From Salinicola sp. (GTDB lineage Bacteria > Pseudomonadota > Gammaproteobacteria > Pseudomonadales > Halomonadaceae), in NCBI GenBank assembly GCA_002695065.1, contig NZNW01000027.1:1-48586 (forward strand): a stretch of DNA of 48,586 nucleotides, in the 5' to 3' direction. A program made the position numbers and the translations under genes. A model generated the notes under the pieces. It saw nothing but the letters and a program-made list of their open reading frames with translations, was not told the origin of the DNA and made no database searches. Shown here in pieces: positions 4,438 to 12,073 of the stretch (its first letter is position 1; each line of letters begins with the position of its first letter).

Positions 4438-5358
4438 ATGAGCGACATCGCGAACGCCCTGGGCCCGCTATTTCTGTTGATTTTACTCGGTGCGGGGCTG
4501 GGTTGGGCACGTTTTCCGGGCGGCGATTTCTGGCCACGGCTCGAGCGCTTCATCTACTACCTGCTGTTCCCGGCGATGCTGGTGGCGACACTGGCCACCG
4601 CCGACGTCAGCCAGGTCCCGGTCATCCGGCTCGGGGTGACGCTGGTCGGCACCATGACGATGATGGGTCTGGGACTGTGGCTGATGCGGCATCGCCTCCA
4701 GCTGGCGCCGGCCGCCTTCACTTCCGCCTTCCAGGGCGTGGTGCGCTTCAATACCTATGTCGGCGTCGCCGGTGCCACGGCCCTGCACGGTGCGGCCGGC
4801 ACCACGGTAGCGGCCGTCGCCGTCGCGCTGATGGTCCCCACGGCCAACATCCTCTGCGTGCTGGCGTTCATCGCCTCCGGCACGCTGGGTAGCGCCAGTC
4901 TGCGCCAGAGCGCCCTGGCGCTGCTGCGCAATCCGTTGATTCTCGCCTGCCTGCTGGGCGTCGCCTTGAATCTTGGCGACGTCGGCCTGCCCGGCTGGAG
5001 CTTCGAGGCCATCGGCCTGCTCGGCAACGCCGCGCTGCCGCTGGGGCTGGTGGCAGTGGGGGTTGCCCTGCGGCCTCAGGCGCTCTGGCACAGCGGCAAG
5101 GCATTCTGGCTATCGAGTGGACTCAAGCTGATCGTGACGCCATTGATCGTGGTGGCGTTGGCCTGGGCCGTCGGTCTGCATGGCGCGGATCGCGACGTGG
5201 CACTGCTGTTCGCCGCGCTGCCGACCGCCACCTCCGCCTACATTCTGGCCCGTCAGCTGGGCGGCGACGCCGAGCTGATGGCCGCCGTGATCACCGGTCA
5301 GACGCTACTGGCGATGGCGACCCTGCCGTTGCTGCTGCACGCCTTCGGTGTGAGTTGA
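4438..5358 (+). CDS. AEC family transporter (auxin efflux carrier superfamily)
   Basis: A 306-residue, very hydrophobic protein with about ten predicted membrane helices in two five-helix halves, as in the AEC/MleP family of organic-acid and auxin-like permeases. The family segments VRFNTYVGVAGATAL and the C-terminal LPTATSAYILARQLGGD are visible; the latter is a strong AEC signature. AAGGATG lies 5 bases before the ATG. Substrate is unknown. It stands alone, transcribed away from the unknown membrane protein, and is followed by the Fur-box/sRNA region. Confidence 0.88.
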   Translation: MSDIANALGPLFLLILLGAGLGWARFPGGDFWPRLERFIYYLLFPAMLVATLATADVSQVPVIRLGVTLVGTMTMMGLGLWLMRHRLQLAPAAFTSAFQGVVRFNTYVGVAGATALHGAAGTTVAAVAVALMVPTANILCVLAFIASGTLGSASLRQSALALLRNPLILACLLGVALNLGDVGLPGWSFEAIGLLGNAALPLGLVAVGVALRPQALWHSGKAFWLSSGLKLIVTPLIVVALAWAVGLHGADRDVALLFAALPTATSAYILARQLGGDAELMAAVITGQTLLAMATLPLLLHAFGVS

Positions 5359-5372
5359 CGAGTGCAAATAAA

Positions 5373-5386
5373 AAAGATTCTCGTTA
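5373..5386. promoter_or_regulatory. Fur-box-like site 1
   Basis: AAAGATTCTCGTTA matches 12 of 14 positions of the palindromic Fur pattern AATGATTCTCATTA. It lies just upstream of a TTGCAA -35-like hexamer (5390-5395) in a non-coding stretch. Matched by eye, not scored with a matrix. Confidence 0.6.
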
Positions 5387-5389
5387 CGC

Positions 5390-5418
5390 TTGCAATCACA
5401 AATGAGAATGATTAACCT
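5390..5418 (+). promoter_or_regulatory. Candidate sRNA promoter between the Fur boxes
   Basis: TTGCAA (5390-5395) resembles a -35. At 17-bp spacing the -10 position reads TAACCT (5413-5418), a weak match. The second Fur box covers the spacer, so Fur-Fe(II) binding would block polymerase. The predicted transcript start is near 5424-5426. Confidence 0.5.
5401..5414. promoter_or_regulatory. Fur-box-like site 2
   Basis: AATGAGAATGATTA matches 13 of 14 positions of the Fur half-palindrome pattern AATGAGAATCATTA. Its centre is 28 bp from that of site 1, and it overlaps the spacer and -10 of the candidate promoter at 5390-5418. Confidence 0.68.
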
Positions 5419-5423
5419 TTCTC

Positions 5424-5540
5424 TCGTGGCGTCGCCAAACGCCACTGACCACAGCAGCGAATGTCAGGTTCCTGCCATGGTTATCTCCTCATCAAGCTAG
5501 TCACGGTCCTTAGTGCCGCCCCGCCAGGGGCGGCTTTTTT
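5424..5540 (+). ncRNA. Candidate Fur-regulated small RNA (RyhB/PrrF-like architecture)
   Basis: About 117 nt with no plausible ORF. It has a 5' stem-loop, with GTGGCGT (5426-5432) pairing perfectly to ACGCCAC (5439-5445) around CGCCAA. A long unstructured middle of about 70 nt follows. A strong terminator closes it (GCCGCCCC/GGGGCGGC, then six T). The middle holds CCATGGTTATCTCCTCATC (5475-5493), the exact complement of GAGGAG, a 6-base spacer and ATG. Two Fur-box-like sites flank its promoter. I see no primary-sequence match to RyhB or PrrF from memory. Alternatively, this is the long 3' UTR of the AEC gene, though that would not explain the Fur sites or the 5' stem-loop. Confidence 0.6.
5515..5540 (+). 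terminator. Intrinsic terminator of the candidate sRNA
   Basis: GCCGCCCC (5515-5522) and GGGGCGGC (5527-5534) form a perfect 8-bp GC stem with loop GCCA, followed by TTTTTT. The T tract is only on the plus-strand side, so it serves a rightward transcript and not the convergent LysR gene, whose stop codon touches it. Confidence 0.9.
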
Positions 5541-6475
5541 CATGCCCGCGGCCGCTGTCCGGTATCGCGTCCACTCAAGGCGTCCCGCTGCCAGGGCCCG
5601 CGACCGTGCAATCGCTCCCGGAGCAACTGGGCCAGAGCCTCGACGGCGGGTTGCGACGCGGCATCGATCGCCTGGGCGAAGTGCAGTCGGGCGACACATC
5701 GCCGGATCGGCGGCAGACCGTCGCTCTCGTCCAGCGCCCGCATCGCCGTGGTGACCCGTTCGCGATCGAGCACACCGATCGCCATTCCGGTCTCGATGGC
5801 CTTCTCCACCGCGTGGATGCTGGTGCTGGTGAAGACGGTTCGCCACGGTCGCTGGATCGAGTCGAGCCCCTCGATCGCCAGATGACGATAGGGACACTGC
5901 TCGGGATGGACCGCCAGCGGTACCACCGCCTCCCGGTGAATGGCGCCCTGAATCGGCGCCGCCCACACCGGCGTGGGGTGCCATAGCGTTTCTCCCCCCT
6001 CCAGCCCCGTGGCATGGTCGAGCACGATGGCCAAGTCGAGCTGACGCTTCCTGAGTGCCCGCGCCAGGCGGCCGCTGGTATCGGTGTTGACGTCCAGCAG
6101 GATGCCCGGATAGCGCGCCATGAACTGGGGCAGGGTGTCGTCGAGCAGCTCGCGGGCATAGTCCTCGGGGATGCCCAGTCGGACGCGGCCACTCAGGCGC
6201 TCGCCGCTGAACCGGCTGATCAGGGTGTCGTGGACGCGCAGCAGCTCGCGGGCTTCGCGCAACAGCACCTCGCCACTCGGGGTCAGCGATACCCCTCTCG
6301 AACCACGCTCGAGCAGCCGCACGTCCAGCTCGGTCTCCAAGCGCTTCATCTGCATGCTGATGGCGCTGAGCGTACGGTGGCGGATCTCCGCCGTGGCCGC
6401 CAGCGACCCCGTCTGGGCAACCACCTGGAATGTGCGCAGCAGTTCGAGATCGAGCGTGGAGCTGACTTCAATCAT
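5540..6475 (-). CDS. LysR family transcriptional regulator
   Basis: A 311-residue LysR-type regulator. The winged helix-turn-helix is at about residues 8-66 (LELLRTFQVVAQTGSLAATAEI, then SAISMQMKRLE), followed by the periplasmic-binding-like effector domain. I place the start at MIEVSSTLDLELL, because the 22 residues available upstream would run into the shared regulatory region and do not look like coding sequence; the ribosome site is weak either way. It diverges from the EamA transporter gene, the usual arrangement when the regulator controls that neighbour. The effector is unknown. Its stop codon overlaps the last base of the sRNA terminator. Confidence 0.88.
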   Translation of the reverse strand: MIEVSSTLDLELLRTFQVVAQTGSLAATAEIRHRTLSAISMQMKRLETELDVRLLERGSRGVSLTPSGEVLLREARELLRVHDTLISRFSGERLSGRVRLGIPEDYARELLDDTLPQFMARYPGILLDVNTDTSGRLARALRKRQLDLAIVLDHATGLEGGETLWHPTPVWAAPIQGAIHREAVVPLAVHPEQCPYRHLAIEGLDSIQRPWRTVFTSTSIHAVEKAIETGMAIGVLDRERVTTAMRALDESDGLPPIRRCVARLHFAQAIDAASQPAVEALAQLLRERLHGRGPWQRDALSGRDTGQRPRA

Positions 6476-6485
6476 ATTGAACACC

Positions 6486-6513
6486 AATCGATTTTTATTC
6501 GATTCATTGAATC
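6486..6513. promoter_or_regulatory. Operator-like inverted repeats between LysR and EamA genes
   Basis: Two adjacent palindromes: AATCGA (6486-6491) with TCGATT (6499-6504), and GATTCA (6501-6506) with TGAATC (6508-6513) around one base. They sit in the 93-bp divergent gap and are good candidates for LysR binding. Autoregulation plus control of the transporter is inferred. Confidence 0.5.
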
Positions 6514-6568
6514 CGCAAGCGCGCGCAGACTCAAGCCGCATCGTCCCGAGACAAGAGGAGGAGTTGGC

Positions 6569-11876: not shown

Positions 11877-11956
11877 CGGGCTCTCCCTGGATGGCTGTTC
11901 GACGGGCGGCGCAGCATCGACGGGAACGACAGCGCCGCCGTCAAGATAGCCCAGAG

Positions 11957-12019
11957 AGCTGGAAGCTGGAAGCTGGAAGCTGGAAGCTGGAAGCTGGAAG
12001 CTGGAAGCTGGAAGCTGGA
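11957..12019 (+). repeat. Heptanucleotide tandem repeat, nine copies of AGCTGGA
   Basis: Nine perfect 7-bp units run head to tail, followed by a partial AGC, between the glcB 3' end and the thioesterase gene. They are inverted relative to the degenerate minus-strand heptads at 12074-12108, so an mRNA crossing the gap could fold AAGCTGGAAG onto its complement. The same inverted arrangement recurs at 21632-21784. Confidence 0.95.
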
Positions 12020-12073
12020 AGCCAAGATCAAACCACCACCGCAAAATCCAACAACCGGTTTTCGCTTTTGACT

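Follow-up and report, generated by a model that had tools for sequence, protein, structure and literature searches.

The window, by which we mean the whole 48,586-nucleotide stretch of Salinicola sp. DNA that was analysed, contains a small-RNA (sRNA) gene lying between genes for a Mem_trans permease and a convergently transcribed LysR-type regulator (Table 1). The features that the initial annotation observed at this locus are real. That annotation described two Fur-box-like sites flanking a -35-like TTGCAA, and these are present, with best scores of 13/19 and 12/19 against the 19-mer Fur consensus (the 12/14 and 13/14 given in the annotation are on a different, 14-position scale). The 7-bp stem-loop that it placed at the predicted start was also found, as was its GC terminator with T6 confined to the plus strand: a scan of positions 4800-6200 returned two overlapping terminator-like sites there on the plus strand, whereas the minus strand had none. 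The fold of the 117-nt sequence has a z-score of -4.5 (0 of 200 shuffles equally stable), and within the core it comprises a weak 5-bp helix in the minimum-energy structure and 3 bp in the centroid. Counting against the locus, a generic sigma-70 scan detected no promoter there. Farther along the window, at ∼11900-12050, ORF translations contain SWKLEAG-type repeated units.

Table 1. Features of the sRNA locus and its neighbours in the Salinicola contig (positions are those of the window).
Feature	Position	Strand	Basis or remarks
Mem_trans permease, upstream neighbour	4438..5358	+	Relative directly upstream, same strand, in 43/69 relatives' loci
sRNA gene	5364-5540	+	Fur-box-like promoter, predicted start ∼5425, two stem-loops, core, terminator; ∼115 nt
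Upstream Fur-box-like pair, 12/19 (5364-5382) and 11/19 (from 5370), offset 6 bp	5364..5388	+	Consensus matching; similar sequence in relatives
-35-like TTGCAA	5390..5395	+	TTGAC- in many relatives
Downstream Fur-box-like pair, 13/19 (5398-5416) and 12/19 (from 5404), offset 6 bp, between -35 and start	5398..5422	+	Consensus matching
-10-like TAACCT, 17-bp spacer	5413..5418	+	TATCTT/TACCTT in many relatives
Predicted sRNA transcript, ∼115 nt	5425..5540	+	Start predicted from promoter
Stem-loop 1, 7-bp stem GTGGCGT/ACGCCAC (5426-5432/5439-5445)	5426..5445	+	Fold and covariation
Stem-loop 2, conserved apical GTCAGG (5463-5468)	5446..5483	+	Fold and covariation
Core TCTCCTCATCAAGCTAGTCACGGTC, putative target-pairing segment, mostly unpaired in predicted fold	5484..5508	+	Fold, Rfam alignment, conservation
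Core part common to both core types	5496-5508	+	Sequence comparison
Intrinsic terminator, 5515-5534 with 8 GC pairs, then T6 (5535-5540)	5515..5540	+	Terminator scan, covariation
LysR-type regulator, downstream convergent neighbour	5540..6541	-	Relative likewise placed in 23/69 loci

No Rfam family reached its curated cut-off in the window. At E ≤ 10 there were five matches, among which PrrF (RF00444) alone had an E-value below 0.3, so neither RyhB, whose model was absent from the five, nor any other Rfam family was retained as a candidate; PrrF was the one iron-sRNA family represented. The PrrF match covers 5391-5542 on the plus strand and model positions 1-150 of 150 at 52.4 bits (E 2.7e-8 in one search and 1.8e-8 in another that differed in length), and its alignment takes in the Fur-box region and the core. 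Because this score falls below the curated gathering cut-off of 90 bits, Rfam itself would not annotate the locus, and we speak of a PrrF homologue rather than a formal member of RF00444. The primary sequence had been judged to resemble neither RyhB nor PrrF; this holds for RyhB but fails for PrrF, since RF00444 aligns from end to end.

A comparison in the other direction used a covariance model, R1, built solely from 24 Halomonadaceae sequences (of 35 dereplicated copies, the 11 more divergent ones were omitted). Across 293 genomes of the order, scanned with stricter filters that lose weak matches, R1 had matches in 50 genomes spread over 29 of 118 genera; Halomonadaceae account for 12 of the 50. 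When 18 of the out-of-family loci were scanned with Rfam, all 18 matched RF00444 at the same place, and the nine that exceeded 90 bits all came from one family (f21), probably the Pseudomonadaceae. The end-to-end alignment to RF00444, together with the recovery by R1 of loci that Rfam calls PrrF, argues for a homologue and not merely a functional counterpart. The earlier proposal of a functional counterpart of RyhB and PrrF in the Halomonadaceae thus stands in its Fur-type iron-sparing design and needs revision in that the RNA appears to be more than a counterpart.

The position of the gene points the same way. The fur gene was found in 30 of 30 genomes, and hfq in the Salinicola genome. sRNA and fur lie on one contig in 21 of the 30 family genomes, 40-131 kb apart in 14 and farther apart in seven, and in f21 the distance is 52-63 kb in four of five genomes; among the other 15 out-of-family genomes, none carried the two on one contig at 150 kb or less, and six carried them on separate contigs. 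These distances, which were derived by hand, suggest that a place ∼40-65 kb from fur, as seen in most close-linked Halomonadaceae and f21 genomes, is an old common neighbourhood. An independent origin within the Halomonadaceae of a Fur-controlled sRNA that is only functionally like RyhB and PrrF, as the initial annotation had it, is accordingly improbable: it would fit the sub-threshold score, and BrrF is reported to serve this purpose with a sequence unlike those of known Fur-regulated sRNAs (PMC7377471), but it has to contend with the shared place near fur, an end-to-end alignment that includes a similar core, and reciprocal matches between the two models.

A covariance search of Rfam and of Halomonadaceae genomes had been put forward as a check on the initial proposal; besides the PrrF match in Rfam, it yielded R1 matches in 197 of 201 sampled family genomes, covering 23 of 24 genera, with no match in G018, G042, G065, or G094. 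Plain blastn with 181 bases matched 181 of the 201. In an 84,980-species collection, the exact 24-base core was located in 73 stretches; the titles of these stretches name genera that we take to belong to the Halomonadaceae, save one titled only Gammaproteobacteria bacterium. By hand count, 55 of the 201 family genomes carry at least two copies of the sRNA, and the Salinicola genome carries one. Tandem copies are present in several Halomonadaceae genera; one review gives tandem prrF genes as exclusive to P. aeruginosa (PMC6321483). Arrays within the family include three copies at L043:2459-3161 (G022) and four at L051:2978-3654 (G139), and outside it five at G449:C3:1547579-1548841 and three at G300:C8:352259-352928. 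In the four-copy array, a Fur box is recognisable by eye in the first copy and in none of the other three; the stretches upstream of copies 2-4 are nearly identical to one another, so this array may give rise to a long read-through RNA resembling PrrH.

Fur-consensus sites of at least 13/19 occurred at 42 of 814,856 positions on both strands of a sample of the Salinicola genome, so that one in a promoter-sized stretch is unusual without being proof, and conservation is the stronger point. The best match reached at least 12/19 in all 69 canonical-core copies as compared to 10 of 69 shuffled stretches, a count that scored the first 85 bases of each 200-base context, included near-identical relatives, and left out rewritten-core copies. 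To judge by sequence, the RNA would thus have the Fur-box promoter of its own that is expected of a PrrF. Neighbours were counted in 69 loci of relatives, 17 of them from Salinicola, within flanks of ∼1.5 to 3 kb: a relative of the permease lay directly upstream in 43 (17 of these Salinicola) and elsewhere in the locus in nine, and none was found in 17. A search of viral contigs returned no relative of the permease. With a same-orientation permease gene so often directly upstream, the RNA could be taken for a 3'-UTR or terminator element of that gene lacking a promoter of its own; we consider this very unlikely, as Fur-box-like sites lie upstream of every scored canonical-core copy and the permease is missing from those 17 loci, within flanks of limited length.

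The predicted structure is preserved with the promoter. When 39 copies (E ≤ 1e-15, drawn from 33 of 45 loci; a wider set of 68 matches includes some that are weak and probably false) were aligned with R1, all 28 modelled pairs showed pairing-preserving changes on both sides, 92.1% of cells were paired, and the covariation score was 0.508, whereas slid pairings gave no more than 0.106 and shuffles no more than 0.209. Relatedness among the sequences, and the fitting of the alignment to the structure, inflate these figures. Pairing was 99.6% in helix 1 (stem-loop 1), with both-side changes in six of six pairs, 89.4% and 83.1% in helices 3 and 4 (stem-loop 2), and 99.6% in helix 5 (the terminator). 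From a MAFFT alignment alone, both-side changes were seen in nine of 14 predicted pairs, belonging to stem 1 and the terminator, and stem 2 was not predicted. Within the 24-sequence alignment the GTCAGG of stem-loop 2 is invariant while the surrounding stem varies; in L050:3012-3145 and L071:3029-3164, an insert in stem-loop 2 replaces the GTCAGG loop.

That the transcript encodes a short protein instead of acting as a base-pairing RNA is hardly credible: a 97-aa mechanical ORF (5461-5754, MSGSCHGYLLIKLVTV...) does run across it and is open through core and terminator in Salinicola, but the longest core-crossing frames vary among relatives (LLIKLVTV, SPHQASHG, ISSSS-stop, and others) and the stems covary. 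Relatives retain both the Fur-box-like sites and the stems, the latter with compensatory changes, and the best-supported reading of the locus is therefore a putative Fur-controlled, iron-sparing, trans-acting sRNA of the Halomonadaceae.

Under the proposed mechanism, Fur-Fe(II) would occupy the promoter and silence the sRNA when iron is sufficient, and iron starvation would lead to production of the ∼115-nt RNA. The stem-loops and terminator would expose a core that is largely unpaired; probably aided by Hfq, this core would pair with the Shine-Dalgarno and start-codon regions of the acnB, acnA, and sdhC (succinate dehydrogenase operon) mRNAs, blocking translation of these iron-rich enzymes and sparing iron.

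These three genes were chosen for target tests because PrrF is reported to regulate sdhCDAB, acnA, and acnB in P. aeruginosa (PMC2851614). For each genome, the local complementarity between its own core and the start region (-50 to +25 for targets, -40 to +30 for background starts) was compared to that of shuffled cores (1000 for sdhC, acnA, Mn-SOD, and acnB, 500 for Fe-SOD, and 300 for background starts), with p ≤ 0.05 as the threshold. It was passed by sdhC in 23 of 30 genomes, acnA in 12 of 30, and acnB in 12 of 27. The acnB starts had been re-anchored post hoc on a conserved start motif after a pass with several wrong starts (10 of 27 at p ≤ 0.05); G015 and G109 are without acnB, and the match in G047 was truncated. 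In L341/L340 (G010:C1:2577201-2579761), acnB was matched as two overlapping pieces, owing to a frameshift or an assembly error. As a negative control, Mn-SOD passed in 2 of 24 genomes (30 loci less five Fe-type ones moved to the Fe set and the truncated one of G164, the Mn and Fe labels resting on a reading of N-termini), and background starts in Salinicola passed in 17 of 350 (one of 351, containing an N, was dropped). Complementarity at sdhC, acnB, and acnA is thus commoner than in either control. Fe-SOD, considered as a further conserved target, passed in 3 of 22 start regions (G074, G140, and the divergent SOD of G019) and is unsupported in general.

In the Salinicola genome itself the pairings are modest (p 0.020 for sdhC, 0.055 for acnA, and 0.097 for acnB). 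RNAduplex energies with heuristic starts did not single out sdhC, as 21% of background starts in this genome bind equally well or better, and near-complete complements of the core showed no excess there (five non-self sites vs. 12 for the reversed pattern). The sdhC start appears to be the GTG within GCCGTGAATAGC. Read against GCTAGTCACGGT, the core portion common to both core types, this sequence forms 10 Watson-Crick pairs and one G-U pair over 12 positions. The match is kept in some lineages with a different N-terminal sequence, such as G109 (CGTGACTAG) and G016 (CCGTGACTA). Taking alignment, promoter, and pairing together, we consider it very probable that the sRNA is a PrrF homologue that would be silenced by Fur when iron is sufficient and would pair with the starts of acnB, acnA, and sdhC to spare iron.

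The core itself is of two types. In genera g10 and g20, apparently Halomonas/Vreelandella-like, TATCTCCTCATCAAGCTAG... is replaced by TTTCTCCCTCTCATTGCTAGTCACGGTC or, in two g20 genomes, by TTTCTCCTCCTCATTGCTAG.... At acnB, six of the 14 old-core genomes read CTTGATGAGGG and one reads ATTGATGAGGG; the GA-extended ATGAGAGG, a change that matches the new core, is found in all eight g10 genomes tested, in none of the 14 old-core genomes, and in none of the five g20 genomes. Of these five g20 genomes, the two whose core is of the second form have CAATGAGGG, and the other three have CGATGAGGG despite their rewritten core, so that in these three the acnB site shows no clear match to the new core. 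At acnB, 24 of 27 genomes score higher with their own core type than with the other, narrowly in some, and G013, G016, and G164 score lower; at acnA the own type scores higher in 20 of 30, equal in two, and lower in eight.

In the AcnA tree, all new-core genomes group together, and G048, an old-core genome, stands next to that group and outside it (83/68); in the AcnB tree, which has fewer supported branches, G048 is nested beside the two genomes with the second core form (99/97). Independent repeats of the core switch, at which the AcnB tree hints, are contradicted by the AcnA tree, and a single switch is the cautious reading. Since the switch is single on the AcnA tree and the genomes are related, they do not constitute independent trials. 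We lean slightly towards the view that PrrF is ancient across the order as a whole and had its target-pairing seed rewritten in one Halomonadaceae lineage (CTCCTCATCAAG to CTCCTCCTCATTG and CTCCCTCTCATTG), with target mRNAs changing in step, a view made less secure by the three g20 genomes in which the new core is without a matching acnB site. If true, an sRNA regulon would have been re-coded naturally, step by step, without loss of function, and the two core types with their differing acnB sites would form a natural swap experiment on the co-evolution of an sRNA and its targets.

These results would extend PrrF-type iron control beyond Pseudomonas to the Halomonadaceae, a family that includes industrial hosts. 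For use as a regulation tool, the P. aeruginosa PrrF1 scaffold is described as having been introduced, in a PrrF1-2-Hfq system, into Halomonas bluephagenesis (PMC12164125, PMC13414033), and the accessible portions of the open-licence literature on PrrF, sRNAs, and Fur in halomonads report no native PrrF homologue in this family. A native PrrF relative, present in most sampled family genomes, might cross-talk with the introduced PrrF1 tool if H. bluephagenesis has one too.

Among known iron sRNAs, RyhB of Enterobacteria shares the Fur-repressed, iron-sparing logic, and its Rfam model gave no match here at E ≤ 10. BrrF of Burkholderia is reported to act at low iron on acnA, sdhC, and sodB; according to that report it sits after hemP without a Fur box directly upstream and has no similar sequence outside the Burkholderiales (PMC7377471). 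ArrF (Azotobacter) and NrrF (Neisseria) are iron-repressed RNAs termed PrrF homologues (PMC2851614), and the Salinicola RNA resembles them by description, as an RNA of the PrrF type that would be iron-repressed. The closest likeness is to PrrF1 and PrrF2 of Pseudomonas (RF00444), with which it shares the Fur-box region, the 5' stem-loop, the UCUCCUCAUCA-GCUA-UCACGGU consensus core, the GC terminator, and a length of ∼115 nt ending at an intrinsic terminator (its start being predicted), the P. aeruginosa RNAs being given as 116 and 114 nt (PMC2851614). It differs in its diverged stems, in a core that reads AAGCUAGUC where the RF00444 consensus reads AGGCUAAUC, and in its single copy, as compared to the two sibling copies described as usual in Pseudomonas (PMC4211561). 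The RNA itself is thus of a known kind, and the novel part would be the re-coded seed in its sister genera.
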